Source: Rhynchopus sp. YZ270_cl-10
Lineage: Eukaryota; Euglenozoa; Diplonemea; Diplonemida; Diplonemidae
NCBI GenBank assembly: GCA_964035575.1
Contig: OZ037856.1
Coordinates: 62,001 to 126,000, forward strand
Direction: 5' to 3'
Length of the DNA: 64,000 nt
The notes beneath the pieces were generated by a model. It had not been told where the DNA came from and did no database searches. It saw only the letters and a program-made list of their open reading frames with translations. Position 1 is the first letter of the stretch. Each line of letters opens with the position of its first letter. This document shows, in pieces, positions 2,917-58,650 of this stretch. Made by a program: the position numbers and the translations under genes.

Positions 2917-3502
2917 CGTAGCAAGGGGGTGGGGATGCAGCAAATGGAAAGTAGCGCCTTTGGGTGGTGAGGGTGAGGGTGGGGGTGGGTCGTGATGGGT
3001 TGCGTAAAGGAGAGAAGAGTCACGCAACAATGCGTGGTGTTGTTCTTGTTTTTGCTTGATATGTCGTACCGTAGTGTGAATGAAGCACACCCAAAGCATG
3101 TTCTGCTGTTGTGTGATCCTGCACAATGGAGGTACAATTAAACGAACACAAGTCGGGTAAATGGACTATCAAAAATGATAAAAGATAAGAGGTCAAAGGA
3201 AAGAACACTTCTGGGGATGTATGTGCTTCTCGTGCACACACATCTGGAAACAGAAGTGCGACATGGCATCGTCGAAAGGTCGACACAATAATACGCTGTT
3301 GCAGGTATGTTTAGGCAATCAAATAAAAGGGCCCAGAGACGGGGAGCAGATGTGTCTCAGGGTGGCGGGTGTTCCGTGAAGCTCTACTCTACTTCCGTAG
3401 GCAGAGAGAGCGGAACAGGGATGCCGTGGTGAGGAGGGAATTGTGTTTTGTGTGCTGCGTACGGAGGCAGGGTGTACGTGCACATTTTTGTGTCGAACAC
3501 AC
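2917..3502. other. spacer between APC4 and the secreted Cys-rich gene
   Basis: 586 bases without a credible gene. It holds a hairpin repeat (3213-3243) and, on the sense strand, several C/T-rich tracts ending in AG between 3130 and 2925 that could accept a spliced leader for APC4. Confidence 0.6.
3213..3243 (-). repeat. hairpin repeat, H2 family
   Basis: Sense strand: CTTCTGTTTCCAG, then ATGTGTGTGC-ACGAGAA-GCACATACATC, then a T/C-rich stretch. The stem TGTGC/GCACA encloses the ACGAGAR loop shared with the other modules. Confidence 0.75.
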
Positions 3503-4303
3503 TTAGTTGGGAAGGCCGCGGAACGGACCGTCGGACGAGGGACGCACCACGAACCCCTCCCACGGGCACTCGGTGCACGGTGGTGGTGGGCCGTACCTAC
3601 CCTGGCAGTTGTTGTTCTGGCACGACGCCCCGTCCCACTTGCAGCGTCCACCCGCAACAGGGCATGCGCCAACAGTGAGGTGCTGCGTGCAGTCCACACC
3701 GTCCTTGTCAATACCAAAGGCAACAAACTCGGCATTTGCACGGAGAGTGAACGAGGTGGACGTTCCTGGTGCCAGCTGCATCCTGAAGCTCCCCATCGGG
3801 TGGGCGAAATTTGTACCCGCAGCACCGGTTGTGAAGCGTGGGGCACACTGCGTCCTCTCCCACCCAGGGGTATTTGTGAGCATTGCAGCGAGGCCGCCCT
3901 GGTATGTGCGCACACAGCTCTGCGGGCATGCGTAGAAGAACACCCATGCGTCGCACACATCAATCAGGGAAGGTTCGTTGGGGCAGGAGTACGTTACCTC
4001 CGTCCCTGCAGCAAGGTCCCAGTTCGACAGCGTTGTTGGGAGCAGACGCAGGTGTGCTGGTGGGTCCTGCAGACGTGCACCGGGCAGGACTCTAGGTGCG
4101 CTGATGTCTGGCCAGGCAGGGTTGCCTGCTGAGGACAGGAACTCGAGGTGGATCGGGAGGGACGCAGAGACCCCTTCCTCCCCTGGCAACATTCCAGCCG
4201 TCAGCACCACCGTTGCATCATCCACAGGTGTCGTTGCTGGATCCCCATGGCAGAGGGCCACAAGGGACGACGCCAACACGAGGCCCTTTTGCAAAAGCGG
4301 CAT
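3503..4303 (-). CDS. secreted Cys-rich protein with a domain shared with the gene at 50258
   Basis: Single exon, 266 aa. The start MPLLQKGLVLASSLVALCHG is a clear signal peptide, and the ATG lies directly after a pyrimidine tract ending TTACATAAG, so this start is favoured over upstream ATGs. After a 90-residue linker comes a Cys-rich module: TYSCPNEPSLIDVC, YACPQSC, then GWERTQCAPRF, then CTQHLTVGACPVAGGRCKWDG and CQNNNC. The same order (CPFNC.., YHCPPC, GWEAGSCAPTF, ACGGFADLAACTAMPECAWE, CVSSWC) appears in the larger secreted protein at 50258-52477, so the two are probably distant paralogues. It ends in a Pro/Gly-rich tail with one CTEC. Likely secreted or cell-surface; function unknown. 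Confidence 0.75.
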   Translation of the reverse strand: MPLLQKGLVLASSLVALCHGDPATTPVDDATVVLTAGMLPGEEGVSASLPIHLEFLSSAGNPAWPDISAPRVLPGARLQDPPAHLRLLPTTLSNWDLAAGTEVTYSCPNEPSLIDVCDAWVFFYACPQSCVRTYQGGLAAMLTNTPGWERTQCAPRFTTGAAGTNFAHPMGSFRMQLAPGTSTSFTLRANAEFVAFGIDKDGVDCTQHLTVGACPVAGGRCKWDGASCQNNNCQGRYGPPPPCTECPWEGFVVRPSSDGPFRGLPN

Positions 4304-4849
4304 CTTATGTAAGAAAGTGTAAAGTGTAAATGAAAGATAGACAAGGTATCTGAAAGGTGTGGGAATTGTTGCGGCGGGAGCGGAGAGCAGGCAAATGAAG
4401 TAGAACCCTTTTTTTTCTCTTCCCATGCTGTGCCTGGCAAAGCACACGCCACATGAGACGCCCTGGAAAAGAACCTGCCCACCACCCACCTGCCCAACGA
4501 AACAGAAACAGAAAACAGAAACAGATGGCAAACATTTTTGATGTTTCGCCTTTTTTTTTATATACCGCCCATACAGGTTTACGTGTCTGCAACCAATGCA
4601 CTGCAGTGACAAATACATCAACGTTCACACAATAGGATACAGCATGTAAGCACGAAGGCACGCAGCCTCGTCTGCACGGTGGCAAACACATAAAAACCCA
4701 ATATTACAACTGACGTGCCACTATTTCCACCAGGAAAACAGCGACAGGCTGGCGCCCTAACAAAGGCGGCTGTTTAAGTGCAAAACGACCTTGTGGACGA
4801 TGACATCATGTGTCCCAGAGGCCAAACCAACATCGGCAAAGATTTGAAC
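4304..4849. other. spacer, no feature seen
   Basis: 546 bases between the secreted gene and the repeat element that starts at 4850. No gene, RNA gene or hairpin repeat was recognised. Confidence 0.5.
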
Positions 4850-5791
4850 ATCAGTCCTATTCGTGGTCATTTACCCCCCCCCCTTTGGGTCGGTGAACCG
4901 GAAATTTTGGAAATAAGGGGGTAAAATAAGGGGGGGGGGGGTAAATGAGGGGGTAAGGGGGGGGGGGGGTAAATTACCATGTTATGGGTTAGGTCATGTT
5001 TTTGGGTGGGAAGGGGGGACTTTTTCATACACGGTGGGGTAAAATTTTGCACAACACAGTGTGACGACACATGCTCTCATGACAAATGTGTCATCTGAAA
5101 AAAATTCCTCACTTCCTTGCGACATCGCAAGCAGTCATGCATCATGGATCCACATCATCCACATCATCTTTCTGCCCGTGCCTGAACCATGACTGGTCAG
5201 GGATCACGGTGTTGCCTCAGATTCCGTGAGGTGTCCCAAACGTATCGCCCACGCAGCACAAACGTACCCACCTGCACCCATCTACCTGCACACGTGATGT
5301 AAAACAGGGTGAAAGATTATTTGCACTTTACCCCTTTCCTCATTTCGAGCTTGTCTCCAGCTTCAAATCAGACGAGTCCTACAGTCTCCGGATGTACGAC
5401 CCGCTGAACACATCAGCCCCTCCCAGCAAACCATAAAACAAAACAGGTATGCGCTGCACTAAGTGAAACTATTACCCCATAATTACACGCCAGGTGGTGT
5501 TTTGCCACTCGTTCCCTGAACCCCCTCGCTTCGCTCGTGGGTTTAGGTCACTCGTGACAAAACACCACCTGGCGTGTTGCGGCGATAATTACCCAAAAAT
5601 TACCTGGTGGCTGGTACTTTACCCCCCCAGGGGGGTAAAGTACCAGCCACAACAGGGTATTATAAGGGGGGGGGGGGGTAAATTACCATGTTATTTTGGC
5701 CTGAACCGTTTTTTTCTGAAAAAGGGGGTAAAATAAGGGGGGGGGGGTAAATTTAGGGGGGGGGGGGTAAATGACCACGAATAGGACTGAT
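4850..5791 (+). mobile_element. non-autonomous DNA element B, copy 1
   Basis: 942 bp bounded by an inverted repeat that begins ATCAGTCCTATTCGTGGTCA and runs on into TTTACC and a C-run. The right end (5762-5791) is its reverse complement. Inside are long G-runs punctuated by TAAAT, a hairpin of about 25-bp arms at 5487-5575 (arms around GCCAGGTGGTGTTTTG), and a second hairpin at 5612-5652 around TGGTACTTTACC. No transposase frame is present. A nearly identical copy lies in the opposite orientation at 29352-31885. AT flanks both ends of both copies, but since the terminal repeat itself starts AT, the true target duplication (2 bp or none) cannot be decided. Confidence 0.8.
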
Positions 5792-6034
5792 AATAAAAAA
5801 AATTCGGAAAAAAAGGGGTGTGACTCAGAGCAATAAGAACTGCTGACATTCTGGCCCTCGCCCAACAACCGAAAAGCTCCAACCCAACCCTACAACACGC
5901 CACGCTCTGTTCTTTTGGTCTGCTTTTGTGTAAATAAACGCAGAATCGTGGGGTGTTTCTTTCTTTTTCCCTTTCTTTCTTTGATTTGCTGGAGTGTAGC
6001 TGCCATCACAGTCTTCACTGTTCTTTCTTTCGTA

Positions 6035-8973: not shown

Positions 8974-9692
8974 TGTGAAGAGCTGGTCCTCTTAAATCCC
9001 TACAGTGGTGTGGTAGGTGGGTAGGTGGTTGGGGTGGTAAGCAATAAGCCTGTGTCCCGCGATGTACACAGGGCAGTAGAAAGACACATCACAGCACAGT
9101 ATGTGACTGCAGCCAAAGTTGTTGGTACATTGCAAGGTATGGACCACGAGGGTACCAAAGAATCGATCCACATTCTGGGGGACGTGAAATTCGTGGTTCT
9201 AAAAGGTAGACACGGCCATGATTTCTTTTTGACATGAGAGACAAAGCATATGTTTATTCTGTTGAGCCAAGCAAACAAAAACACACAAGCAAACCTAAAA
9301 CGAAGCACGAAACAAATACGTTCACTGTGGCATCTCCGTACAGACCAAGACACAAAGGGTTATGTTCATTTTGTCTCAGAAGCGCCCCCTCAGCAGGCCT
9401 TCGTGCTAGGTTTAAAGAGCCTGCGTGGAGTGGTGAGCTACCACCCATCTGTCCACCCCTCTATCCAAACAAGAATGCAATGTATGCAAAGGTCTCAACC
9501 GATGCAGCACAAGTGGGATACCCTCCTAGGTCTATTTTTCCTCGTGTGATGCGAGAAAAGTCAAGGAAAGTATTATAAAAAAAAAACTAAAAAAAGTTGA
9601 AATGTGTCAACGCGCCTCTACAGCAGTGAGAGAATACAAGGCTACCCTCAGGCACCCCCCGCCGGCTGGAAAAAAAAAAGGTAGAGAGAAAA

Positions 9693-9732
9693 GTTGTGAG
9701 AGGCGAACCTAGGCCTCTTTGTGCTTAGTCTT
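9693..9732 (-). repeat. hairpin repeat, H1 family
   Basis: Sense strand: CCTTTTCAG, then AAGACTAAGC, a variant loop, GGCCTAGG, ending ..CTCACAAC and followed by TTTTCTCTC. Confidence 0.65.
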
Positions 9733-10391
9733 CTGAAAAGGAATGTGCCCGACGTATATGATTCACCCAGTGTGCTGGACAGGCTCGCAGACATTGGCTG
9801 AGAAGAACAGTTTTTTTTTTTTTTTTTTTTTTTTGAGTTTTCTTTCATTATTATTAAGGAGAACGGTAGGGAGCACCTTGCTTCAGCGGCTGTGTGCTGC
9901 TGGGTATGGAACTCCCGTATCGTTCAGTGGATGTGTTGTCTGAGAGAAGCAGTGCAGGGTATTAGCTTTGGTGCTTAGAATTTAGTACAAAGACCTGATG
10001 ACAATTTTTTTTTTCCCCGCTAACAAATCAGATGATTCGAACGCAAGCTAACACCCTGAAGCAGTTCACAAACAATTAATTTCATATGCGTTTACAATCG
10101 AAGACGAAAGAAAGCACAAACAAACGAAAAAAGAGAGAAATATTGGTAAGATAAGCAGTGCTCAGTCACCTGCAAAAAAAAACGAAAATAAACCCTTAAA
10201 GTTGCCATGTCTATTCGCATGGTGGCGTTATAATTTATTAGGTTAGGGCCCGGTTTTTAGCACAATAAAAAAAAAGAACGAAGAGAGCGACCTGCTGTAC
10301 TGCAAAGGATTGAATGCAAGGATTGCAGACAGGGAACGCACATCCCCAGACCACCCCGCACCCAAGCCAAACACGGCCAAAAAAAAGAAAA

Positions 10392-10686: not shown

Positions 10687-12354
10687 TTACGGTTTGCAAA
10701 AAAAAAACGGGGGGCATACATTCACTAGTGCAATCTGGATAAACGGCTTCGACTTCAGCACCTGGTTCTTGCAGAGCGGGCAGGTGTCCTCTTTCATCAG
10801 CCACTGCTCGATGCAGACGGCACAAAAGCAGTGCTGACACGAGAGCTGTCTAATAGGGACCTCCTCTGAGAACCCCGACAGGCAAATGCAGCACTGGTCC
10901 ACCCCATCCGGCAGGCTCTTGATTGACACAGGGCGGCTGTTTGCGCGTATGCAGTCGAGAATGCCCTTCTGCTTTCTCTCGTACCTGTCCAGACACTCCA
11001 GAATCTTCGTGGGCTGGGGTGACACCAGCTGCGGACTGCTTGGGTCCGCCAGCGTCCGCATGAGCTGTGCACGCACGAGCACCAACTGTTCACGCGTCTT
11101 GCCTTCGAACAAGAGACGCGACAACTTGTCCATTGTGTCGACCTCCACAGGCATGGTCACACGGTCGATTTGCTGTGATGGAAAGAAAAGTTTATAAGAT
11201 GAACCTCATAGTCACCTGAAACAAATGACAAGGAAATGAGAGACATAAAGTGACAACCTTGCGATGACAGATTACACTTATGTGGGAAAAGTTAGGAAAG
11301 TGCAGCTTGCGTCACAAAGTTGAAACGTTGGTGTGCCTACGTTTGACAAAACATACCTCTGTGATATGAGGGTAGTGCCGCCAGAGGATCTTCGGCAGCC
11401 AGAAGAGCCTGAACATCATCCACAGGTTCTGGCTCATGAAGAGCACTGCGTGCGCAACGTCGTAGCGTATCCCGCTGCCTTCGTTTGCATGGTCGCGGAA
11501 GATTTCTGCGTCCCTGACCTTATCCCCGAGCATGGCACCTGCAGCAAGACTCACACACGGCAGCACCAGCTTGTCCACAACACGCAGTCCCAGGCCGAGC
11601 CAGCATCGTGGATGCCGTGGAGAGAAACCTTCGTGTGGGCCACACACTGAGTCGCCTGTGATGAAGGAGAGGATGCCTTCACGTGCACACGTCAGCATCG
11701 ACGTCATGAGGTGCTGCTCTACTATCTGTGTCGTGTGGTCATGAGAACAGAAAACCCAAAAGGGATCGGGGTGGGTGGGTGTGTGGTGTGGCGTACCTCC
11801 TGTATACTCATGCTGCGCCGTTCCACCCGCACATCTTCAAACGCAACATCCTCACCAGCCGAGCACGACGCCTGCAGAATCGACTCTGGGATGGCGACAG
11901 AGCCCCACACTGAGAAGAGTGTCTTCCATCTGTTGGGGGTGGGGGTGTGAAGGCGCAAAGTGTGGAGCTTGGGGCAATAGAGGGAAGGCGGAAAGTGGAC
12001 ATACGTTTCCAGCTCGCACTGTCTGCCCCTGGCAGCAGCGAGACGCACCTTCTTCGCACCAAACAGCAGCGCGCACAGCGCCGCACCCGACACCGCTGCC
12101 AGCGGCTCGACCACAGCAAAGCGCAGCATGTTCTTGTAGAACGTTGTGGTGTAGAACTTGACAAAGTACGACCGATACGCAACTGTGGACCATAGCTGCG
12201 AGCGCAGGGCACCCGGGTGGTACTCATCTGCCGCATTTACAAAACACCTGACCAGCACAAACAGCACAACATTCGAACAGACGTACCTGTACAGGATAGG
12301 GAAGGCAGAGAACGTCTCGGGCAGCACGACGGGCGATGCACTGCCAACTGGCAT
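10687..12354 (-). CDS. multi-exon membrane RING-finger protein (putative E3 ligase)
   Basis: Exons 12354-12287, 12247-12005, 11929-11797, 11725-11357, 11172-10687 (432 aa). Introns are 39, 75, 71 and 184 nt, all GT-AG, phases consistent throughout. The 39-nt one is in frame and could also be retained. The first half has hydrophobic stretches (residues ~70-95, MLRFAVVEPLAAVSGAALCALLFGA; ~150-235, including VLFMSQNLWMMFRLFW) that probably span or lie in a membrane. Near the C-terminus is a C3HC4 RING: CCICLSGF, then LSCQHCFCAVC and DTCPLC. The RING looks most like RNFT-type ligases, but the class is not certain. A ubiquitin ligase of an internal membrane is the best guess. The last intron contains a truncated H1 hairpin directly before its acceptor. 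Confidence 0.75.
11190..11215 (-). repeat. truncated H1 hairpin repeat inside a cis intron
   Basis: Sense strand of RING-gene intron 4 reads TTTGTTTCAG then GTGACTATGAGGTTCATC, TTATAAAC, TTTTCTTTCCATCACAG and the next exon. The repeat therefore sits between a first pyrimidine-AG and the acceptor used. Confidence 0.75.
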
Positions 12355-16879: not shown

Positions 16880-16905
16880 TTGGGAGAAGGGAAAAAAAAA
16901 GAAAA
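16880..16905. repeat. LINE target-site duplication, 3' copy
   Basis: 26 bp, identical to 23472-23497. On the sense strand it is TTTTC followed by a T-run and CCCTTCTCCCAA, a polypyrimidine tract. Confidence 0.92.
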
Positions 16906-16943
16906 GTTTATAAGATGATCCTAAGCCTCTCGTGCTTAGTCAC
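16906..16943 (-). repeat. H1 hairpin forming the LINE 3' terminus
   Basis: Sense: AAG, GTGACTAAGC-ACGAGAG-GCTTAGG, ATCATCTTATAAAC, then the target-site duplication. A perfect CTAAGC/GCTTAG stem encloses ACGAGAG. This is the consensus form of H1. Confidence 0.9.
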
Positions 16944-16956
16944 CTTATCATATTCG

Positions 16957-19900
16957 TTATCGCATAGCTTCAGCTGCGCTGGCTTCTACAAGTTTGTTGT
17001 CAGGGATGATGTCATTTCCCCAGCCGGAGTTCGTAATTTTGGCACGTACGATGACGTGTTCGAGCATGTGCATAGTGTAGCGCGGGTACGTAAAAACTGG
17101 GCGACGGTCGTAGCCTATAAGTCCGGGTGCGCCAATGGACCGGAGGCCCCGTGAGGAGGAGATGGCAGATGCGGGAAATGGGTTTTGGATCCCAAGAGCT
17201 TTGCACAGGCGGTGAAGCTTGTTGAGCAATGTGCGCAAGGCAGAGGCCCGTTCTCTAATGTTAGAGGTTGGCCGGAGAACGTAGATCCTGTGGAAAATTT
17301 CCAAGTCAATGGCAAGTTCCACGCATGTCACAGGCAGGTTGGCGGTGCTCCATTTCAGGGAGGAGGCCCATTGGAGCATTCGCTTCAGTTCGTGGCGCTT
17401 CTGCTTGCATCTCGGATCATCGTCCTTCCCAAAGAAAGGGGCGAGCTGCCGGTAGATGGCCTCCTGGTATGGGGGCGCATCGAACACTTCAAAGTCCATA
17501 CGCCATGGGTGGCGTGCAGGCGCTGTGGTAGTCCGCGAGGACAGGTGATCATCTACTGCTGTGGTGACGTCCAGCAGGTATCTCTGCGTGTCAACGACGA
17601 CTTGCTTGGGCGTGTTCGTGGGAGCTATGCCATGCATAGCCAGGCAACTCGGGGTGTTCGGGCCGATCCTGTCGAGGAGAGGGCGGTGCGCTTCCTTCAC
17701 GTTAGCAGATACAGTGTGCGGGCAAGTCCACAGCAGGTGCTTCGCCAGCCCGGAGGTTGGTGTGAGACATAAGGGGCACTGATTCACTTCGAGGTGTATG
17801 CCACCTCTCTTTGTTGACTCGTATAGGCACAGCACCGTAGGATGCGCGTAGAGTATCCCATCGCAGATGATACGGCGGAGGCGGTAAGCTAGCAGGGGGT
17901 GGGACCACTGCAATTGGTCGTGCAGGTACGTGGTGTCGGCGAGGTTGACGCCGTGTTGAGCGCCGTCGTAAGTCGGTCTGTCCAAGGCAAGATCTGTGAA
18001 CTTCTGTCGTCGGACGATTTCGCGAATGGCGTGGTGTCGTTCACCTGGCGCGAGAAGACCTAGGGCGTGTGTCTTCTCTTCTTCCACGGGGGCGCTTGAC
18101 AGCTCCGTGACGGTTGTTAGGTCGTCACACCATCTCACGCCTGTCAGTATGCTAGTGGAGGTCATGTTGCCGACCGGCCCGTGGGGGCGGAAGTCCCAAC
18201 CTCCTCCTGCGTTGTACCTCTTGTGTATCGACAGGCATCGTTCTCTCAGTGTTGCATCAAATGCTATGTGGTCAAGCACAACGTTCATGGACCGGTTGCA
18301 TACGATGGCGGCCGGGTCAGTGCGATGGCTCTTCAACAGTACCGTGCGTATTGCGAGGCCTGCGCGCGTACCATAGTCACTGCCCCAGAGGCAGGTGTTG
18401 ACGGCGGTGGAGAGTTCCTTCAAGCTAGACTGCGAGGGCAGGGCGTACGGGACCTCATACAGCGCACCCGGGAGGATGCATTCTGACACAATTCTATACT
18501 TGTGGTAGAACGCCAGCGGCATACATCGTAGGCGTTGTAGGGCTGCGATGGCCTTGCGGACTCGATCAGGGGAGGAGCGTCGAGAGTGCTTCGAGCAGTA
18601 GAGGTAGACCCCTAGGATCTTGACCTTCACCAGTGTTTTGTATCTGTGTCCTGTGTTCGAGGCAAGAGTGCTGGTAAAGTTCTCACGTGATCCAAATGCT
18701 ACGGTTTTGGTGTCGTTAAGTTTCATGCCGGTGATGGCACAGAACCTCTCCACAATGCGCAGGCATGGCTCTAAGCTGTTCATCGACTTCCGTGACAGTA
18801 GGGTGATGTCGTCAGCGTACGCTCGTGAGCAGGAGTTCTTGCAGCTGTCCAGGTCCTTCAGCAGCACCGCGACCAGCGCATTAATCATTACGACGCTGAT
18901 GGGGCACCCTTGGAGGATGCCGTTCGTCACTCTAAACGAGGTACCTACGCCAAGTGGAAGCTGGAACCTACGTTGCAGTTGCTCGTACATGGTGCGGAGC
19001 GGCTGCAGAATGCGGGGGTGTAGCCCAAGTCGTGCTGCGAGCTCGAGGGTAAGCTTCTGGGGGACACGGTCAAAGCATTTAGCAAAGTCAAGTGCCAGAC
19101 CGTACAGCGGTTCTCCTCCAGACAGTGCGTCTTCCAGCTGTGTGCAGATGTCAAACAGAACGTTGTGGGCCCCGTGGCGAGGGCGGAAGCCGTGCTGGTC
19201 CTTATGTATCCAGGTTTCTTGCCACTTCTGGATGTTCCGAACGCGTGCAGAAGCCCATAGCCTATACACACTGCTCGTCACGGTGATCGGGCGGTGGTCC
19301 AGTGGGCCCTTTCCCTCTCCCTTGGGAGTGAGCGTCACAAGCGCAGTGAGCAACGCTTCAGGCCACGTGCCGGATTCTTCGATCTCGTTGAACGTTTTGG
19401 CAAATGCGTTCAGCAGGACCATCGGAAGGCGTTTCAGCTCACCCATACGCCACCCATCGACACCACATGCGCCAGACTTCTTCTTACTCTGCAGAACGCG
19501 GTCCAGGTCTTCCCCAGTGAGAGGGAGCAGATCCATGTTGTGCTTCGTCACATGCTTCCCAAACACAGCGTCGAAATCAGCATATTCCGGCTCGGCACAC
19601 TCGCGGTAGAGCTGGAACACAGATTTCCACTCTTCCTGGAGGATGGCATCCATCTCTTGCGCGTTGGCCGTCAGGGTTCCGTCTCTTCTAGCCACAGCCA
19701 GCAGCTCGTCGGGTAGGGAGCCCCTGCAGAAGGCCGTGAGCTTTTTTCGGTCCACGTCAAAGTTGTGTACCGCCTTCAGCTTCTGTTGCTTTTCCCTGTA
19801 GGTCCTGGTGTCCCTACCCAGGTCACTCGCCAGAGACGCAGAGGTAGTGTGGAGGTCCTCTGCTAGCGTCAGCTGCTCTGCTATGCCCAGGGGAAGGTCG

Positions 19901-21321
19901 TCCACAGATAGGTCACGCACACGCAGCTCCTTGCATTTTCGGAGTGTCGATTCCCACAGGCGGCGAGTCTTGTGCTCCAGCACGGTGAACCCCCCATTCA
20001 CCAATCTTTTAAGTTGAATCTCGAGCTCGAGAGACATGTTAGCCAGGCGGGCCAACTCCACCTGTCGAGGGGGGGCAGCACCAGTCGAGTACTTCGTGGT
20101 CGGAGCTGCGATCGATTTCTGCACCGGCTGCCTCACCTCACCACGGCCACGGTGGCCACGATTCGTGGGGATGCCGTCGTCATTCGCACACAAAAGAAGA
20201 TACTCCTCACTGGCCTGCGACACCGCATTCCACATGTCATGTACGTCCAGACGTGTTTCAGCTTCGTGGAAGCCCTTCGCAGCCAGGAGAGCGGCGCATT
20301 GTGCTGATCTCTGCACACTCAGGTCAGGCTTCACCATCGACAGATCCTTCGGTACAACAAATCGGTAGACTAGTTGTGCGAATGCTGCAAGGGAGAGTTC
20401 CACAGTGACAGCGCTGTGCTGCGGTACTCCCACGTGGTGCGTCGTACACCTAGACAAGGCGGCGGCCGCCACCTCATTCAGCAATACGTGGTCAATCCGC
20501 GTACCATCTGAGTCGCGTCGCATAAAGGTTGGAGGAGGAGGGACACATCCAAGCCTTTGGGCCTGCACCACAGCAGCATCAGTCCACCCAGACTTCACCG
20601 CTTCCCGCAAGATGTACGACGTAGAGGCAGAGGTGTTCAGGTCACCGCACACAACCACCGGCACGTCCTTCCCTAGAGCATTAGGCATGGTGTTGAGGAC
20701 GCAGTGCAGAAGTTTCTCGCGATCCTTCTTCCTCCCTCCTTCAGAGCCTGAATGGGCGTACACGTTGAAGATGTATAGGAAGACACCACCCGCCCCCAGG
20801 GCCAAGCGCGTGAGCTGAATCCTGTCTTGGAACAAGTTGATGTCGGTCAACGTGTTGTCATGGAATGCGCTCGTGGGTCTGCGCACTAGTGTGGCTACAC
20901 CGCCCCTCTCCGCAATGGTGGGGTGACGTATACCTGCAAGCCTGTATCCAGGCTGCGGTCTGCCCCAAAGTGGCTTCCAGACAGGCGGGAGGTCGGCTTC
21001 CATCCTGCGGGCACCTTCTTCCGTCAGCTTCACTTCCTGCAGGCAGAGCACTGTGCTGTTCAACGCAAGCGTGCAGGCAGCGTGGTTGGCGTAGGAGGTG
21101 ACGTTGCAGGTGGTGACTGTGATGCAACCTTCGCTCGTAGGGGGAACGGCAGACACGGGTGGTCCTGTGCTGGCGGCAGCAGTGCGCTGTTTCTTCGCTG
21201 CTGGTGGGCCGGCTGTGCGGATGTTGTGCTGCGTGCTGGTCTTGCTTGAGGCTTTCTTGGGTCCAGGATGCGGGTGGATGTCTCCGTCGGAGAGGAGACA
21301 TTGTTGCATGGTGGTAGTCAC
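16957..21321 (-). CDS. LINE ORF2: endonuclease and reverse transcriptase
   Basis: 1454 aa. N-terminal APE-type endonuclease (about residues 65-310): CLQEVKL with the metal-binding Glu, VVCGDLNTSAS near 224, and DGTRIDHVLL near 274 with the Asp-His pair. Reverse transcriptase from about 620 to 920: LVTLTPKGEGKGPLDHRPIT near 664, QHGFRPRHGAHNVLFDI, YGLALDFAKCFDRVP with the first catalytic Asp, and RAYADDITLLS with the YADD box near 835. A C-terminal Cys/His cluster, CPLCLTPTSGLAKHLLWTC.., lies near 1180. No RNase H domain is evident. It would nick target DNA (here a pyrimidine tract) and copy the element RNA by target-primed reverse transcription. The complete frame indicates a potentially functional enzyme. 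Confidence 0.93.
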   Translation of the reverse strand: MTTTMQQCLLSDGDIHPHPGPKKASSKTSTQHNIRTAGPPAAKKQRTAAASTGPPVSAVPPTSEGCITVTTCNVTSYANHAACTLALNSTVLCLQEVKLTEEGARRMEADLPPVWKPLWGRPQPGYRLAGIRHPTIAERGGVATLVRRPTSAFHDNTLTDINLFQDRIQLTRLALGAGGVFLYIFNVYAHSGSEGGRKKDREKLLHCVLNTMPNALGKDVPVVVCGDLNTSASTSYILREAVKSGWTDAAVVQAQRLGCVPPPPTFMRRDSDGTRIDHVLLNEVAAAALSRCTTHHVGVPQHSAVTVELSLAAFAQLVYRFVVPKDLSMVKPDLSVQRSAQCAALLAAKGFHEAETRLDVHDMWNAVSQASEEYLLLCANDDGIPTNRGHRGRGEVRQPVQKSIAAPTTKYSTGAAPPRQVELARLANMSLELEIQLKRLVNGGFTVLEHKTRRLWESTLRKCKELRVRDLSVDDLPLGIAEQLTLAEDLHTTSASLASDLGRDTRTYREKQQKLKAVHNFDVDRKKLTAFCRGSLPDELLAVARRDGTLTANAQEMDAILQEEWKSVFQLYRECAEPEYADFDAVFGKHVTKHNMDLLPLTGEDLDRVLQSKKKSGACGVDGWRMGELKRLPMVLLNAFAKTFNEIEESGTWPEALLTALVTLTPKGEGKGPLDHRPITVTSSVYRLWASARVRNIQKWQETWIHKDQHGFRPRHGAHNVLFDICTQLEDALSGGEPLYGLALDFAKCFDRVPQKLTLELAARLGLHPRILQPLRTMYEQLQRRFQLPLGVGTSFRVTNGILQGCPISVVMINALVAVLLKDLDSCKNSCSRAYADDITLLSRKSMNSLEPCLRIVERFCAITGMKLNDTKTVAFGSRENFTSTLASNTGHRYKTLVKVKILGVYLYCSKHSRRSSPDRVRKAIAALQRLRCMPLAFYHKYRIVSECILPGALYEVPYALPSQSSLKELSTAVNTCLWGSDYGTRAGLAIRTVLLKSHRTDPAAIVCNRSMNVVLDHIAFDATLRERCLSIHKRYNAGGGWDFRPHGPVGNMTSTSILTGVRWCDDLTTVTELSSAPVEEEKTHALGLLAPGERHHAIREIVRRQKFTDLALDRPTYDGAQHGVNLADTTYLHDQLQWSHPLLAYRLRRIICDGILYAHPTVLCLYESTKRGGIHLEVNQCPLCLTPTSGLAKHLLWTCPHTVSANVKEAHRPLLDRIGPNTPSCLAMHGIAPTNTPKQVVVDTQRYLLDVTTAVDDHLSSRTTTAPARHPWRMDFEVFDAPPYQEAIYRQLAPFFGKDDDPRCKQKRHELKRMLQWASSLKWSTANLPVTCVELAIDLEIFHRIYVLRPTSNIRERASALRTLLNKLHRLCKALGIQNPFPASAISSSRGLRSIGAPGLIGYDRRPVFTYPRYTMHMLEHVIVRAKITNSGWGNDIIPDNKLVEASAAEAMR

Positions 21322-21345: not shown

Positions 21346-23244
21346 TCACTGGCTGTTGCCGAAGCACGTGGCACAGATGAGCGCGTCGCAACCCGGGCAC
21401 TTGTTGGCGCCGTGGTTGTGCTTAATTTTAGTCGCACAACATGCGCAGGCGGCGTCCTTTGTCTGCACCACCACTGTGTGTGATTGGTTCCACGCATGCA
21501 CATGCACCTCCTCCTTATCACCCTCCTCAGATTCGGCATCAGGCAATTCCACATCCTCAGCCATCTCCTCTCTGGCCGGGGACCTGGAGAACATGTCTAT
21601 CGCCCTCTTGAAGAGGGAGCGGTCGTCGGCTGTTGCAGGTGTCGGTGCAGGCGCAGGCTGACCAGTCGCAGTACGCTTCACACCCCTGCTCGCATTGCTG
21701 GGGTCAGGGCTCAGCGCCGGGAAGTCCTCCATCGAGAGGGTCACCTTCTGCCGCTTCACTGCACCAACGTAGGTCTTGCCCTTGCTCTTCTTGTGGCGCA
21801 AGGCGTCCGTGGTGCACTCAGTGATATGGAGAGAGGACCTGTTACTCCTGCATAAGATCGGCCACTGGGGGGCAGACGCGCTCTCGACAATGAGGACCAG
21901 GGACCCCTTCGTGCGGTACGACTTGCGGGAGACACACTGCCACGACGACTGCAGCGAGCGCATCACATCATCCGCCTCTTCTGTGGGAGAGGCACCACGC
22001 ACTTCGTACAGCAACCCCGAGGTGTCGCGGGGCTCGCACGCCAAGTTGCCTGCTGCCGTCCGGTACCTCTCCAGGTCGTCACCGCTGCCCATGCGCAAAC
22101 CATACCGCTTGGCGGCCGAAACTACACCGTCGCTCTTCACCACCTCGTGCACCCGCAGGGCCTCCTTCAACGTCGCCTCGGTCTTGAGCCAGAGGATGGG
22201 CTCCTGGTATCCCCCTTTCACAAAGGAGATGGTCCGCCAGAACACCCCGTACCTCCCACTACTGCGCAGTAGCTCCATCTTCTTCGCCACCGGCACGCGT
22301 ACCGACGCCTCGGTCCTGTCACTGTAGGTTGTGACGTGGAAGACCCTGTTGTGTTGGGTCTTCACATCCAGCTGCAGTGTCGCTCTCTTCACCAGCTCAG
22401 CCATAGCCGGGGCGGCCGTCTTCAGGTCGTTCAGCAGCTTCTGCGTAACGGCGCTCAGGGCCGACTTCCGTACCACAGCCTGGATGACTGTGGTGGAGTC
22501 CTGTACCTCCACGGTGGCGAACTTCACCTTCGGCTTCACCTCGTCGGTGTACCACGTGTACACATCGCGGCACACCGTCACGCCGCCTTTGCTGAAGAGC
22601 ATCGGCAGCTTCTGCTCCTGCTCCGGGTTCGATGACAGTGGGCGGAATGATACCAGCCCAAATCCGCTGTTTTTGGCGAGCACTGATAGTCCCCTCAGAC
22701 GCTCAACCCATTCGTGCCGCCCGGCGTCGGAGGTGTCCTTCGGGATGAGGAGCACGCCACTCGCAGGTGGAGTAGGGTCTTCGAAGTCCTGCGCCGTCCT
22801 CACCGGGATGTCCCAGTCCTCTTGGCGTAGGAGGAGCGACTGCGTAGGAGCGTCCGCCGGTCTTTGCGCGTTGGTGGCATGGGGCGTGCCCTTCTTCGGC
22901 CCCTTCACGGTCTGCCAGCCGTTCTTCTTCTTCTTCTCCTTCTGTTGCATTTTCGCTTTGGGCGGTAAGGTAGGTGCGGCGGCCTCGTCCATGCCCTTGT
23001 CGTTGTCGTCGTCGTTGTTGTTGTTGCTGGTGCTGTTGCTGGTGATGTTCGTTGTAGGGGGCGGGGTTGGCGCCGGCTCCAACCTTGGCCGTTTGGCGGG
23101 GGCGGGGCCTGCGTCCTCGTCGTCAAAGGCGAGATCGAGGAGTAAACCCAAGATCTCGAGGAGCCTCTGGCGCACGAGAGGGGATTTTGCCTTAGCCTTA
23201 AGGGCTTTGGCCTTCTTCAGCAGCTCCTCGAAGCTTGAAGACAT
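21346..23244 (-). CDS. LINE ORF1: nucleic-acid-binding protein with C-terminal Cys/His cluster
   Basis: 632 aa, starting MSSSFEELLKKAKALKAKAK. It opens with a Lys-rich helix, then a low-complexity Pro/Asn/Lys-rich region (residues 45-120). The middle has mixed alpha-beta segments that could be RRM-like folds, but I cannot assign them with confidence. The last 35 residues hold a Cys/His cluster: ACACCATKIKHNHGANKC, then CPGCDALICATC, likely zinc-binding. In two-ORF LINEs ORF1 coats the element RNA. It precedes ORF2 by 24 nt and the frame is intact. In a trans-splicing host both ORFs may be read from one mRNA by reinitiation, or ORF2 may receive its own leader. Confidence 0.85.
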   Translation of the reverse strand: MSSSFEELLKKAKALKAKAKSPLVRQRLLEILGLLLDLAFDDEDAGPAPAKRPRLEPAPTPPPTTNITSNSTSNNNNDDDNDKGMDEAAAPTLPPKAKMQQKEKKKKNGWQTVKGPKKGTPHATNAQRPADAPTQSLLLRQEDWDIPVRTAQDFEDPTPPASGVLLIPKDTSDAGRHEWVERLRGLSVLAKNSGFGLVSFRPLSSNPEQEQKLPMLFSKGGVTVCRDVYTWYTDEVKPKVKFATVEVQDSTTVIQAVVRKSALSAVTQKLLNDLKTAAPAMAELVKRATLQLDVKTQHNRVFHVTTYSDRTEASVRVPVAKKMELLRSSGRYGVFWRTISFVKGGYQEPILWLKTEATLKEALRVHEVVKSDGVVSAAKRYGLRMGSGDDLERYRTAAGNLACEPRDTSGLLYEVRGASPTEEADDVMRSLQSSWQCVSRKSYRTKGSLVLIVESASAPQWPILCRSNRSSLHITECTTDALRHKKSKGKTYVGAVKRQKVTLSMEDFPALSPDPSNASRGVKRTATGQPAPAPTPATADDRSLFKRAIDMFSRSPAREEMAEDVELPDAESEEGDKEEVHVHAWNQSHTVVVQTKDAACACCATKIKHNHGANKCPGCDALICATCFGNSQ

Positions 23245-23432: not shown

Positions 23433-23469
23433 CAATGAAGTACAGAAACTGTAGCTTTAGAAATCGTTG
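23433..23469 (-). other. spliced-leader sequence at the 5' end of the LINE
   Basis: Sense strand reads CAACGATTTC, TAAAGCT, then ACAGTTTCTGTACTTCATTG. This is close to the diplonemid SL exon as I remember it and shares the 3' end of kinetoplastid SLs. It starts within two bases of the target-site duplication, so the element's RNA carried an SL when copied. The next bases are GT, so retention of SL-RNA intron sequence cannot be excluded, but the rest does not look like an SL RNA. Confidence 0.85.
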
Positions 23470-23471
23470 AA

Positions 23472-23497
23472 TTGGGAGAAGGGAAAAAAAAAGAAAA
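23472..23497. repeat. LINE target-site duplication, 5' copy
   Basis: 26 bp identical to 16880-16905; marks the empty-site sequence lying directly after an H2 hairpin. Confidence 0.92.
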
Positions 23498-37102: not shown

Positions 37103-37200
37103 TTTGAAAAGAAACCACTCTAAACATGAAAACGGGAGTCGCTGCTGCGAGCGCGACACATTTCTTTACGTTTTCCTGAAAGATTTTTTTTTTTTTAATT

Positions 37201-38111: not shown

Positions 38112-38147
38112 CTGAAAAAAAAGAAGAAAAAAAAAAACACTAAAAAG

Positions 38148-38186
38148 TTTGGTAAGATGGACCTAAGCCTCACATATCTTGGTCTC
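38148..38186 (-). repeat. hairpin repeat, H1 family
   Basis: Sense: TTTTTTTCTTCCCAAG, GAGACCAAGATATGTGAGGCTT, AGGTCCATCTTACCAAAC, TTTTTAG. Confidence 0.7.
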
Positions 38187-39226: not shown

Positions 39227-39465
39227 AACCGAACAAAAGAGGGGAAAGGGAGGGACCCAACAGGACGAGAAGAAAAATGCAAAAAAAACAAAAACAAAAA
39301 CCCCCCAAGGGCCAGAAAAGGCCATTTAAAAAAAACATCGCGTCTTTTTAATTATGTTTTATTTGCGAAGAGAGGAAGAAACAGTGGAGTAGGGGAGGAG
39401 GAAACGAGAGGGGGGAAAGACATTACAAAGGGGAGCATTGTATTAGATTCATTGGAGGAAAAAAA

Positions 39466-39589
39466 AAGTTGGCTTGAAATACAAAAGCCCCCTCTCGTGA
39501 ACAGTGTACCTTTGGTACATGACCCGGCTGTAGGTGGACACCCCCCCCAACCATGCAGTCCTACATCCATTTTGTGGTTTACATCTGAA
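39466..39589 (-). repeat. H5 repeat, long form
   Basis: About 110 bp similar to 46431-46530. Sense: TCAGATGTAAAC .. GGACTGCATGGTTG .. GTGTCCACC, ACAGCCGGGTCATGTACC AAA GGTAC, CTGTTC-ACGAGAG-GGGGC, TTTTGTATTTCAAGCCAAC, T-run. Confidence 0.75.
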
Positions 39590-40032
39590 AAAAAAAGCAA
39601 TGCTTTTGTCTCACCCCACCCCCTTTAAATTTTTCCTCCACACACACATACACACCCTCTCTTGGTTAGCTAGCTTTTCTTCGAGTGGGCAAAAGAGAGA
39701 AAACGGAAAATGCACCAACGGTTTTCTTCACCTTAACAATAACGTAACGGGGTGGGGAGGGATTAACAGGATGGGTTTTGTTGATTTTCTTTTTTGTGTC
39801 AAAAGGAGCTTCATTTATTTTTGTGAGGGCAAGAAAATTGGAATACAAGAAAAATAAAACCGAACAGAACGCAATGTGGATATATCCGATAAGGTCTGAG
39901 CACTGAACGGTAAATCACCATTAACTCCAATAGCATACCTCTCGAGAGGGGGTCGAAGCTCGCTTTACAACAACAAAAAAGGCTCTCCTTAATTTCCGCA
40001 GCATTTCTACTCAAAGGAAAACAAAAGAAACA

Positions 40033-40073
40033 GTTTTATAAGATGAACCTAAGCCTCTCTTTTGCTTAGTCAC
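40033..40073 (-). repeat. hairpin repeat, H1 family
   Basis: Sense: AAAAAAAG, GTGACTAAGC-AAAAGAGAG-GCTTAGG, TTCATCTTATAAAAC, TGTTTCTTTTGTTTTCCTTTGAGTAG. Confidence 0.85.
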
Positions 40074-40707
40074 CTTTTTTTGATCACAAATCGGTATCAA
40101 TAAATAAGGGGGGAATAGTGCAAAAAACAGAGGGGGATCTGAGTTGATTTGCACTACTTCTCACTCAATTGTTTTCTTAGAAGAACAGAGACTGATGGAA
40201 GAAAGAAAGATTGGTAAAAAAAAATGACACAGCACCATATACACCTTGTGCAAAGTTGGTCAACCTTTTTTGAAAGAAAAAAATGTCACGAAACAGAAAG
40301 GTGTCAGATACAGCAAGTTGTACAGAATCGTAAAGAAGAAGAAAAAAAATTACGGGAAAAGTTGTCTCCCCCCGTAGATAACCCCTACCCTCCCCGGACC
40401 CCCAGATTGTCGGATAACTTCATAAATTGACGGAAGAAAAAAAAAAAGGAGAGGTGGAAAAAAAAAATAGTTGAACGGCTCGATGGGCGTTAAGAAATAA
40501 AAAGGTACTGTTTGATGTGCGTCAACGGGACGCAATATGAAAAAGGAGAAATACACAAAGCTGAAAAGACTCATCGCTTGTCGTTTTTTTTTTAATTGTA
40601 GGCCATTCCGAAAAGCAGCGCAGACAAAATAAAGTGATAGTAAAAAGGGGGGAACCACCTCGGAACATCGAAAGATGAAAGGCACGCACGCGTCCTCCGA
40701 GATTTTT

Positions 40708-40743
<36 letters not shown>

Positions 40744-40745
<2 letters not shown>

Positions 40746-40777
40746 GCAAGATGAATGTGTCCCTCGTGCACACACAT
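40744..40777 (-). repeat. hairpin repeat, H2 family
   Basis: Sense: CTTTTTTTATTTATTAG, ATGTGTGTGC-ACGAGGG-ACACATTCATC, TTGCAAG, T-run of about 30. Confidence 0.75.
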
Positions 40778-41114
40778 CTAATAAATAAAAAAAGGGCGAT
40801 TTTGGAGATGCGACGAACCATCATTTTTTTTTCCGCCAAATAAAAAAATGGCGGTCGATAAGTTCAGTTCATGGCATCTGATCACAAAGATTCGCCTAGC
40901 TCTCTCGCTCTCTCTTGTATTTTTAATAGGTTTCAAGAGGTTGGTGTAAGGCGCCAAAAAAGGCTTCCTTTTCCCATACATAACGGACAAAAAAACATGA
41001 CATCTGTTTTATTTTGAAAACTTAAAAAATGCTGGGGTTGATGCAAAAAAACACACAATGTACACAAGCAAAGGGGTTTTGAAAGTTGGTGGGGGGGGAA
41101 AGGAAAAGAGAGAA

Positions 41115-47855: not shown

Positions 47856-47878
47856 CTGGGGGGGGAAAAAAAGGAAAA

Positions 47879-47916
47879 GTTTATAAGATGAACCTAAGCC
47901 TCTCATTGCTGAGTCA
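47879..47916 (-). repeat. hairpin repeat, H1 family
   Basis: Sense: ATGACTCAGC-AATGAGAG-GCTTAGG, TTCATCTTATAAAC, TTTTCCTTTTTTTCCCCCCCCAG. Confidence 0.8.
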
Positions 47917-48018
47917 TATTCAATAAAGACTGGAGAGCGATTCAGATGGGTCTCGTCTTGGAGTGGGTGGGCTCTTCTGCGAGACAATCGGATACAGAGT
48001 ACAAGGTAAAAAGAAAGA

Positions 48019-48687: not shown

Positions 48688-50257
48688 TTGTGTCTGTTGT
48701 GGATGGGGGTTTGGTGAGGGGGAAAGGGTAGGAAAGTTTAAGATTGATTAATCTAAGATGCCCCGTAAAGGAAGTTGAGAGTGTTTTATGTGCAGTGTGC
48801 ACACGTCGGCTTGATCAAGGCGTGACGGCAATGAGAAAGGGATCATGTGGCGTGGACTGGCCCACAGGTCGGCAGGTGCTTGTGTGTGGCACAAGAGAAC
48901 AGAACAATGCAAAACAAAAAAGGAACAACAAAACCAAAACCAAGTGATTTTCATTTCCGTGTTTCAGTTGAATGTTGAAGACAGTCTTGTGCAATTAGCG
49001 AGAGAGAAAAGAACACACCATCCTGGACAGTGGCCGTAGTGGTAGCAGAGAGCAAAACTAAAAACAAACTGCCAACCATTCCGAAATAATGCAAAGCCAG
49101 CTGTCCTCTATTATTGCAGATAGTGTGCTGTGCGCGTGTTTTGCGACAAGTCGTGTCTAAGTAAAAAGGGGGGAAAGTAAGAGTAAAAGAGCAAGTGTGA
49201 TGGGAAGCAGGGCACCTTAGAGCGAAGCGTTCGTTCAGCACAAACATTATTGGCCACACTGCACCTGCTTCCAACGAGAATAAAAGAATAGTTTGTAAGA
49301 TGAACCTAAGCCTCGCGTGCTCAGTCACCTTGAATAACAGGGGAAAAGACAAAAGGCAGGGAGGGAACCATGCAAGAAATCTACCCTCAAGAACAGAACA
49401 CCAGAAAATAATAAAACCCCCGACCTTTCAGAGACGCAAGGCTGGGTTATTTGTTGCGTCTTGTGGCGTTAGCTGCGGTATGACCACAGAAACTAAAAAA
49501 AAAAGTGGGGTTTTACTTTTGGAACTATTTTCCAGTGTCTTGTTTGGAAAGTGGGTCATCTTGCATTTTGGGTCAGCATCGTCGTTATTTGCTAAATTAA
49601 TTAGTGTTGTAGTTGTGGTGAATTGCTTATTTTGTTGTTTCTGTCTGCGTTTAGGTTTGTTTTTTGTTTTGTTTTGAATCCATCAAATTCGCAGCAAAGC
49701 TGCAAATGTTTGAAAAGACCCTCATCTGGTTTATAGTTGAAACATCACCTAAGAATCCATAAAGACTGCAAAAGAAAAAAAAGCCAAAACAACAAGCTAA
49801 AGAAAGGCAAAGGCAGCATGAAAGTAAAAGGAAAAGCCAATGCCAAAGTCAAAGTCAAGCTTTCAGAAGAAAAAAAAAACTCGGGAAAAGCCAGCTTGCA
49901 AACTAATGCACGGCTGCCTCCAGCATGTGCAAATAAGACACAAAACAGGTTTGCATCTAAACACAGACTCGTTAAAAGAGTGGAGGACTTTCCCCGGTGA
50001 GATGGAATCATATTTGTTTTGTTTGTTTTGAAAATACAATAATGGCATACGAACGAAAAGGCAAATAATGGTCATAATAAGGTGGTGGCTTTGAAGAATG
50101 GGTGTGCACGGAACAAACGTCCCATGCAACCCCCTCTGCAAAGCACTGTTGTGTTCTGAGGTTGGTGTTTCTTTGTTTCGTCAACTCCTCTCCCGTTTTT
50201 TCTTCTTCCAGTTATCGTTGTTGTATGTCGGTGTGGCACGGCGGCACATCTGCTTCA
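48688..50257. other. spacer with one H1 hairpin repeat
   Basis: 1.57 kb. Apart from an H1 module (49291-49328) there is A-rich sequence around 49740-49900. The Lys-rich open frames there reflect simple A-rich sequence. Confidence 0.6.
49291..49328 (-). repeat. hairpin repeat, H1 family
   Basis: Sense: CCCCTGTTATTCAAG, GTGACTGAGC-ACGCGAG-GCTTAGG, TTCATCTTACAAAC, TATTCTTTTATTCTCGTTGGAAGCAG. The G-T pair in CTGAGC/GCTTAG keeps the stem. Confidence 0.85.
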
Positions 50258-53245: not shown

Positions 53246-53292
53246 GACAGTGGAGCTTGCATGTTGGCAACTACACTATTCCAACAATTTGT
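53246..53292 (+). repeat. H4 hairpin repeat in reverse orientation
   Basis: Plus strand reads GACAG, TGGAGCTTGCATGTTGGC, AACTACACTATTCCAACAATTTG. It is the only module I found opposite to the genes. Confidence 0.65.
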
Positions 53293-56169: not shown

Positions 56170-56203
56170 GTTAAGATCGAATGTGCCTCGCGTGTACACA
56201 CAT
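56170..56203 (-). repeat. hairpin repeat, H2 family
   Basis: Sense: TGGTGAAAAAG, ATGTGTGTAC-ACGCGAG-GCACATTCGATC, TTAACC. Confidence 0.75.
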
Positions 56204-56403
56204 CTTTTTCACCACTATCGTTGAATTTAAAGAAAGATTGGTCAAATATAGTGCCTCTGTAGCCACCCACAAAAAAAAATAGGGGAAAAAGAGGGAGTTT
56301 TGTTCATCACGTCCTAGGGTGTGAAAACGTCTTCTTGGAAAAGAAGATCTGGCAAAAAAAAGTTATCTTTACTTTTGGAAGAACATAAAAATGAAAAAGA
56401 AAA

Positions 56404-56773: not shown

Positions 56774-57010
56774 CTATACTGAACACTTTTTTTTGGTCAA
56801 AAACCTTGCTTTTATAAAAGGATCCCACAGAGAAGATATTTGGTTTCTCTCAAAGACAAAAGGATTTTTTTTTCGCTGAGGCTGCTGCTCTGAACATCCA
56901 GCCAAGATGGATTACCACCACCTTTGAAAATAAAAAAAGCTGCAGAAAATGGTGCGGACGCACGTAGGGGGGAGAGGGAGGGAGAAAAAAAAGAAGAAAA
57001 AGGAAGAAAA

Positions 57011-57048
57011 GTTTGTAAGATGACCCTAAGCCTCTCGTGCATAGTCGC
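57011..57048 (-). repeat. hairpin repeat, H1 family
   Basis: Sense: GTGAG, GCGACTATGC-ACGAGAG-GCTTAGGG, TCATCTTACAAAC, TTTTCTTCC. Confidence 0.75.
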
Positions 57049-57083
57049 CTCACCAAAAAAAAAAAAAAAAAAGGTTGTCAGAT

Positions 57084-58210: not shown

Positions 58211-58242
58211 TGTCAGATGAACCTAAGCCTCGCGTTAGCTAT
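58211..58242 (-). repeat. H1 hairpin repeat split by element D
   Basis: The larger part lies to the right (sense TCTAG, ATAGCTAACGCGAGGCTTAGG, TTCATC); its end was carried to the left side of element D as the 8-bp duplication and T/C-run. Confidence 0.7.
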
Positions 58243-58548
58243 CTAGAGCAAAACAGAAAGCGTGGAAGATGAACGGTTGCCATACAGAGCACAGAGCAGG
58301 TTCAAAACTAGGGAAAAAGGAGGGCAGGTGTGTTATGGGTGAGGAGCGGGAATGAAATCGAAACTGAAGAGAAAAAAATCAACATGGCCATGTGAGAGGG
58401 GGAGGTTAATGAAAAAGTGTGTTGAAAAACCAAAAAATGGTTCTGTATTGCTTTGGCTTTTGTTTTTTTTTTGCCATGTGAGAGGGGGATCACTCAAATC
58501 CCTCAAAGGGGGGGGTGATCTGGGAGAAGATAAAGTTGATCAAAAAAA

Positions 58549-58587
58549 GGTTATAAAATGAACCTAAGCCTCTCATTGCTTAGTTAC
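58549..58587 (-). repeat. hairpin repeat, H1 family
   Basis: Sense: TTTTTTTTTCAAAG, TAACTAAGC-AATGAGAG-GCTTAGG, TTCATTTTATAACC, T-run. Confidence 0.8.
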
Positions 58588-58617
58588 TTTGAAAAAAAAA
58601 GAGAAAAATGGTAGAGA

Positions 58618-58650
58618 CGCCTATTCAGCCTCTCAGTGACTTAGCCACTA
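58618..58650 (-). repeat. diverged H1/H3 hairpin repeat
   Basis: Sense: CTAG, TGGCTAAGTCACTGAGAGGCTGAATAGGCG. Confidence 0.5.

Follow-up and report, generated by a model that had tools for sequence, protein, structure and literature searches.

Small hairpin repeats with an ACGAGAG loop in a diplonemid genome are very probably the 3′ stem-loops of a group of long interspersed nuclear elements

Small hairpin repeats sharing an ACGAGAG loop are dispersed through a 64,000-nucleotide stretch of the diplonemid Rhynchopus sp. YZ270_cl-10 (positions 62001-126000 of contig OZ037856.1, hereafter the window), in a genome of 152.4 Mb and 126 contigs. It is very probable that these modules are the 3′-terminal stem-loops of a group of diplonemid long interspersed nuclear elements (LINEs), occurring at the ends of LINEs and, far more often, as 5′-truncated retrocopies that consist of the hairpin and a U-rich tail. 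As such, they look like leftover copying signals rather than hairpins retained for use by the host.

The gene strand and two hairpin families

Pfam matches at E ≤ 0.001 were found for seven of the ten minus-strand open reading frames (ORFs) submitted, one of them (WD40) below the curated cut-off, and for none of the ten plus-strand ORFs submitted; the sense strand of the window is therefore the minus strand. The GAS8 protein encoded here has its best species-named match in Diplonema papillatum (82 % identity), and a transcriptome protein matches it at 94 %.

An earlier interpretation of the window, made without database searches (the sequence-only reading), had proposed about 45 modules of 25-110 bp in at least five families. 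The repeats themselves are real. The loop ACGAGAG occurs 16 times, 12 of these on the minus strand, where 5.54 occurrences are expected (about a three-fold enrichment), and none of 100 dinucleotide shuffles reached 16. Covariance models were built for two families, R2 from 17 copies of H1 and R1 from 15 copies of H2, with three stretches of the window in each seed. In the window R2 gave 13 matches at E ≤ 0.014 and R1 gave four at E ≤ 0.0003, all on the minus strand; the best plus-strand matches (R1, E 0.028 and 0.042; R2, E 3.2) are the same palindromes read in reverse. The proposed length range fits the data, with hairpin-only copies of about 45 nt and longer truncated tails. The models do not bear out the number of modules, since 17 good matches and some weak ones were found, nor the number of families, of which two, H1 and H2, are tied to a source. 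A first trial pattern built on a guessed stem gave no matches.

H1 is the 3′ end of a young LINE

A young LINE encoding an endonuclease and a reverse transcriptase (RT) has H1 as its exact 3′ terminus. On the minus strand of the window this LINE has an ORF2 of 1454 aa (16957-21321) with an APE-type endonuclease (PF03372) and an RT (PF00078), an ORF1-like open frame of 632 aa without a Pfam match (21346-23244), and a spliced-leader-like exon at its 5′ end (23433-23469). The ORF2 stop codon (16957-16959) lies 10 nt ahead of the hairpin, which with its U-rich tail (16898-16946, minus strand; R2, 72 bits; also fetched as L047) forms the terminus of the element. A 26-nt direct repeat, the target-site duplication, flanks the LINE outside the hairpin (5′ copy, 23472-23497; 3′ copy, 16880-16905, its first letters overlapping the U-rich tail; both minus strand), therefore the hairpin is part of the LINE and not of the target.

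The same terminus is found in other copies. In a search with the last 300 bp of the LINE, 40 of 1047 first-look candidates were scored and all were 98-100 % identical. All 30 LINE copies fetched (L031-L060, including the window copy) end in ...CGAATATGAT-AAGGTGACTAAGCACGAGAGGCTTAGGATCATCTTATAAACTTTTCT, with flanks that diverge thereafter, and in three of the 30 CTGAGC replaces CTAAGC. Among 33 scored ORF2 matches, ten are full-length at 100 % identity and eight are at 95-96 %. Many of the nearest relatives of the RT are labelled D. papillatum, the best at 45 % identity. A divergent ORF2 match elsewhere (L063, 8823-9858, plus strand; 25-29 % identity over residues 53-406) represents another LINE lineage.

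We take the exon at 23433-23469 to be a spliced leader. When 18 LINE 5′ ends were compared (17 fetched, L127-L143, and that of the window), the whole leader-like exon was present in three (the window, L132, and L143) and its last part only in 12, often behind a T-rich flank; in L140 the end of the leader occurs twice. Because leader-like sequence is present at most 5′ ends (15 of 18), the LINE copies were probably made from trans-spliced RNA. The break in the leader near TTTCTG might be due to annealing at T-tracts or to a modified leader base. In D. papillatum, according to the available text of PMC10161547, there is a 39-nt leader and genes are co-transcribed in groups.

H2 belongs to a related lineage with a re-paired stem

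In H2 the loop is the same and the upper stem differs, being GTGTGC/GCACAT in place of the CTAAGC/GCTTAG of H1. Starting next to the loop and moving down the stem, the upper six pairs read C-G, G-C, A-T, A-T, T-A, and C-G in H1, and C-G, G-C, T-A, G-C, T-A, and G-T in H2. Between these two lineages, three of the six pairs are thus unchanged and three are altered on both sides, one of them to G-T. The lower stem is near-identical, with a 2-nt bulge in H1 and a T-T mismatch in H2 in the folds.

Longer copies identify H2 as the tail of a related, decayed LINE. An upstream extension, GCGATAACGAT, is present in four of 20 fetched H2 loci (L068, L070, L076, and L080), and in part in L082, and it matches the stop region of the H1 LINE, GCGATAACGAA; long H2 copies have GCGATAACGA..GTGRTAA in common with that region. 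A set of eight longer loci of H2 includes one, L094, that extends into the C-terminal end of an RT (46.7 % across 45 aa, containing a single stop; E 2e-7, as computed against 28 short loci with the composition correction off). An origin of H2 from a host gene is disfavoured because this longer copy continues into the RT C-terminus.

A lone hairpin around position 110 of L050, GATGAAC-CTACGC-ACGAG-GCGTCC-GTTCATC, is possibly a third family.

Stems decay within H1

Within H1 the picture is different from that between the families. A set of 44 R2 matches lying off the centres of chosen loci was compared (13 from the window, seven from L061-L066, and 24 from L001-L030), three of which are LINE tails; L009:1314 and L010:151 coincide, and L010:334 and L009:2660 each fall at the centre of the overlapping locus. 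Across 13 pairs, 542 pair cells, 58 are broken, 26 carry a one-sided change with pairing kept, and four are changed on both sides, in an alignment fitted to the structure and therefore leaning toward pairing. All four two-sided changes fall within the three outermost pairs, and there are none in the upper six. Inserted H1 copies are dead and decay without compensation, therefore selection acted on the LINE RNA and not on the modules.

The compensating stems of the sequence-only reading thus hold between H1 and H2, in three of six upper pairs, but not among H1 copies. Likewise, the selection on RNA structure that it proposed is seen in what is kept between the families and not in the modules themselves. 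That reading had named two observations that would tell against it, no excess of compensatory changes and an orientation random to transcription: inside H1 there is no such excess, whereas the orientation is far from random.

Hairpin-only copies and their ends

Copies without the rest of the LINE are abundant. Exact patterns gave at least 943 genome matches for the H1 3′ arm and tail, LINE tails included, at least 359 for a strict hairpin-only H1 pattern, at least 1127 for the exact upper hairpin preceded by a pyrimidine at -12, where the LINE has none, and at least 64 for H2; the reversed control of each pattern gave none. LINE-tail copies with ten more upstream letters number 187, as against approximately 1127 exact-core copies, a ratio of about 6:1. 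In six 10-kb stretches taken at round coordinates (L061-L066), R2 gave seven matches at E < 0.001, including one LINE tail (L063:1092). Seven matches in 60 kb extrapolate to approximately 18 000 copies, with a wide error (order 10^4). Thirty loci (L001-L030) were selected on the 3′ arm alone, and in 29 of them a central R2 match covers the whole model, 13 of these loci being in the seed; the exception is L012.

Most copies begin at one place. Among the first 100 of the at least 1127 copies, the core is directly preceded by AGGTG[AG] in 74 and by AAGGTGA in 51, T makes up 62-67 % of the letters at positions -8 to -11, unlike in the LINE, and conservation begins at AAGG. In eight of these 100, GAT stands near its position in the LINE, therefore diverged LINE tails may account for a few per cent of the 1127. 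Twenty of the 100 were fetched, picked by eye for having no exact 29-mer just upstream among the matches listed; their breaks are scattered 0-70 nt upstream, often directly after a T-run, and one (L148) is a diverged longer copy. Truncation is therefore continuous, yet with a large peak at the base of the stem. Most of the 20 fetched H2 copies also begin near the stem base, at (A)AGATG (L073 and L074 being near-copies of one locus). The same structural start despite a different upstream LINE sequence points to the hairpin, rather than a sequence motif, as what seems to set the 5′ end of the modules.

Hairpin-only copies sit within pyrimidine tracts on both sides, as had been noticed from the sequence. 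The upstream tract was also described as ending in AG; in most of the 100 copies this AG belongs to the AAGG or AGG with which the element itself begins. For 28 hairpin-only copies the upstream and downstream flanks match over a mean of 7.21 nt, compared with 6.54 ± 0.22 nt in permuted pairs (one of 500 as high). A YAG acceptor is present downstream of 32 of the 76 hairpin-only copies; the corresponding figures are 74 of 195 for the other tracts in sense and 46 of 104 for those in antisense. Such acceptors are therefore no commoner than after other pyrimidine tracts, and targeting of splice acceptors is not supported.

Orientation

The claim that the modules lie in the sense orientation of the genes is supported, beginning with all 17 window matches. 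A neighbour test used the places listed for the 943, 359 (73 of those listed), 64 H2 (30 of 64), 1127, and 187 patterns, covering contigs C1 to about C53. Nearest hairpin-only neighbours are on the same strand in 160 of 160 pairs at distances up to 50 kb, in 189 of 193 up to 100 kb, and in 214 of 221 up to 200 kb; disagreements at the longer distances would follow from switches between strand blocks. For LINE-tail copies, the nearest hairpin-only copy within 200 kb is on the same strand in 42 of 42 cases, and H2 agrees with H1 in nine of nine. Further R2 matches are on the strand of the central copy in L001-L030 (22 of 22, without L010) and on the strand of the LINE in L031-L060 (three of three, without L047). 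In the six 10-kb stretches, each has matches on one strand only (minus in L062; plus in L063, L064, and L066; no matches in L061 and L065). The Pfam-matching ORFs in L063 and L066 are on the hairpin strand, and the ORFs of L062 and L064 that were submitted gave no Pfam match.

With the orienting elements masked, matches between loci are in the same orientation in 45 cases and opposite in none (171:0 at a looser cut-off). A first count of 299:0 was dropped, because the central element of most loci had itself been used to orient them. Other dispersed repeats in loci with an assigned sense, some of them likely to be coding matches, are in the same orientation in 236 cases and opposite in 22. As these too lean strongly to the sense, retroposition in this genome may be sense-biased in general, if coding matches are set aside.

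Candidate target sequences, counted with elements masked, also lean to the sense strand: 202:106 sense to antisense for tracts of at least 12, 105:44 for tracts of at least 15, 105:76 for T-runs of at least eight, 32:14 for TTTTCTTT, and 3:1 for CTTTTCTTT. Unmasked, CTTTTCTTT is found 10:1, mostly in the elements' own tails. The orientation is as strict for LINE tails as for hairpin-only copies, and this may speak for biased insertion rather than for slow purging.

A proposed mechanism and its weak points

In the proposed mechanism, a LINE protein would recognise the 3′ end of the LINE RNA by its ACGAGAG loop, carried on a paired stem, and the U-rich tail would anneal to a nicked purine strand, where reverse transcription would be primed. 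Copying would mostly end at the hairpin base, either through stopping of the enzyme or through trimming of the template to the protein-protected hairpin. Since recognition would require the RNA to fold, stems would covary from one LINE lineage to another, while the inserted copies, being dead, would decay. Some coupling of insertion to transcription is also supposed.

Several points weigh against this account. That the hairpin serves for recognition is suggested by analogy. Free-running reverse transcription should yield scattered 5′ ends and not a sharp peak. The duplications at hairpin-only copies are mostly T-runs, unprovable singly. The two-sided pair changes within H1, though few, do exist. 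Three of the 18 LINE 5′ ends (L133, L141, and L142) lack leader sequence within the 651 nt retrieved. An intact H2 LINE was not encountered, and H2 loci L067-L086 gave no divergent RT match when first searched. The modules reported at 33939, 23498, and 48019 are not tied to any LINE. In addition, sense tracts exceed antisense tracts only about 1.4-3:1 once elements are masked; target choice therefore cannot explain the strict orientation, and target supply was rejected as its whole cause.

A more specific form of the mechanism, advanced only tentatively, is that of hairpin-footprint retroposons, in which protein-protected stubs of LINE RNA of approximately 50 nt would be the main templates and insertion on one strand would be coupled to transcription. 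This would explain both the sharp 5′ end, seen in two families, and the strict orientation.

Alternative explanations

The strongest rival, though an unlikely one, is that the modules are a true tiny short interspersed nuclear element (SINE), an independent RNA of approximately 50 nt with its own promoter that is mobilised by the LINE through a common hairpin tail. The sharp start close to the base of the stem, which two families show, and the excess of about 6:1 over LINE tails would be expected of such an element. GCTTAGG is followed by A, the letter of the young LINE, in 16 of 32 strict hairpin-only copies, by G in eight, and by T in five, so that not every copy matches that LINE. However, the modules contain nothing beyond the LINE tail, there is apparently little room for an internal promoter, and the Rfam scan of the window gave no family at gathering score. 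A tail in common with a partner LINE is present; a body derived from tRNA, 7SL, or 5S RNA was not found in that scan, for which no tRNA finder was used.

It is very unlikely that the copies are introner-like elements, each a small intron with its 5′ splice site between AAG and GTGACT and its 3′ site in the downstream tract and AG. To our eye, AAGGTGACT resembles a U2-type 5′ splice site. This explanation was weighed seriously because some diplonemids have structured noncanonical introns (PMC12621601), and hairpin introners are reported in Amoebophrya (PMC7789003), as far as the available parts of these sources describe them. The YAG counts given above do not set the copies apart from other tracts, and no observation made at the copies speaks for introns. 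Furthermore, the copies lie within pyrimidine tracts, AAGATGACT without GT is found in L001, L018, and L022, and H1 is a LINE end.

Selection of the modules as host regulatory RNA hairpins in the spacers, the interpretation first given to them, fares equally poorly. Their strict sense orientation and conserved loop would suit it; the uncompensated decay of the copies and the identity of H1 with a LINE end do not. Single copies may nevertheless have been co-opted by the host. Finally, a DNA transposon resembling a miniature inverted-repeat transposable element, with the palindromic ends AAGRTGA/TCATCTT as terminal inverted repeats, can practically be discounted, given the one-sided U-rich tail, the variable 5′ truncation, the identity with a LINE terminus, and the 45:0 orientation.

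Copies and other repeats in the window

All copies in the window are on the minus strand. Besides the LINE terminus, H1 hairpin-only copies are at 40030-40076 (R2, 65.9 bits), 49287-49331 (65.3), 47875-47920 (59.5; immediately upstream of a PhyH frame identified by Pfam), 58545-58590 (55.5), 57007-57051 (48.5), 37195-37238 (38.9), and 23645-23688 (36.8). The upper hairpin has mostly been lost from the sequence at 11186-11218 (34.3 bits), and decayed copies are at 28974-29022 (32.3), 37847-37887 (28.4), 9689-9733 (26.8), and 38144-38189 (22.5; E 0.014). H2 is represented by hairpin-only copies at 32855-32894 (R1, 57.6 bits), 40742-40780 (55.5), and 3207-3246 (46.8), and by a copy at 56172-56206 (27.3), where the upstream letters resemble a longer H2 tail.

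The sequence-only reading had named seven sites, and their treatment as one family is rejected by the R1 and R2 matches. Those at 16906 (H1) and 3213 (H2) are solid. The site at 33523 is a borderline H2-like hairpin (33535-33552, minus strand; R1, 15.8 bits, E 0.17), those at 33939 and 23498 do no better than chance (E 2.4 and 5), and that at 48019 has a plus-strand match only (E 1.5). The site at 53246, described as the single antisense exception, matches neither model up to E 5. Positions 53246-53272 contain GTTGGAATAGTGTAGTTGCCAAC, part of which is also in the downstream flank of L110; this is a separate short repeat, not of the ACGAGAG family.

Two other dispersed sequences were observed. 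A repeat of approximately 130 bp, at about 80 % identity, is at approximately 39456-39597 of the window (minus strand) and in L008, L013, L026, and L044, the listed pairs being in the same orientation; it is possibly another retroposon. A motif, CCGATGAACGGTGAGGCGTTT, is in L003, L007, L045, and L066, in both orientations by the assigned sense of the loci (L003 and L007 being near-copies).

Comparison with known systems

No earlier description of such a hairpin-only retroposon was found in a literature search of partial coverage. The claim that no repeat of this kind has been described is nonetheless too strong, since 3′ stem-loops of stringent-type LINEs are described in the available part of PMC4176376. 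What is unusual is the sharp structural 5′ end, the strict sense orientation, and that hairpin-only copies are the commonest product counted.

SINEs have a tail in common with a partner LINE. The modules are like them in being short, non-coding, and apparently mobilised by a LINE through that tail, but unlike them in that no head or RNA-gene body is seen and the entire module is the LINE tail. The SIDER and L1Tc/ingi-related retroposons of trypanosomatids are likewise short retroposons in the polycistronic genomes of Euglenozoa. As far as their partly available descriptions go, those elements bear a conserved 79-nt or Pr77 hallmark, whereas here there is a lone 3′ hairpin and the modules are far shorter. 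The spliced leaders of dinoflagellate retrogenes are termed relict leaders. In both cases, going by the portion of PMC6050394 that is available, a leader is copied into the genome with a retroposed RNA; here, however, it marks the 5′ ends of LINEs, with its last part only in 12 of 18.

What appeared to be a new class of regulatory hairpin would become a record of a LINE recognising its own RNA. With a large set of insertions, a 5′ end defined by structure, and no antisense copy in these tests, the choice of template and transcription-coupled insertion could be examined, and annotators of diplonemid spacers or small RNAs will encounter these hairpins.

The closest known systems are the stringent-type LINEs (ZfL2-1, ZfL2-2, and UnaL2; PMC4176376, as partly available), which likewise have a stem-loop near the LINE 3′ end. 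For the zebrafish LINEs ZfL2-1 and ZfL2-2, experiments described in that source indicate that the loop carries most of the specificity and that the stem must pair. That loop and pairing outweigh the letters of the stem is seen by experiment in those LINEs and by the comparison of H1 with H2 here. The present LINE encodes an endonuclease and RT and has a fixed 3′ stem-loop in 30 of 30 fetched copies, and between its lineage and that of H2 the stem letters change while pairing and loop are kept. Unlike the stringent-type LINEs, as far as that source describes them, it has a U-rich end, hairpin-only copies that outnumber LINE tails, a sharp 5′ end, and a strict sense orientation. By this analogy, the LINE behind the modules probably works like a stringent-type LINE, with recognition led by the loop; two lineages with one loop and re-paired stems fit the loop-first model from zebrafish in a distant eukaryote.

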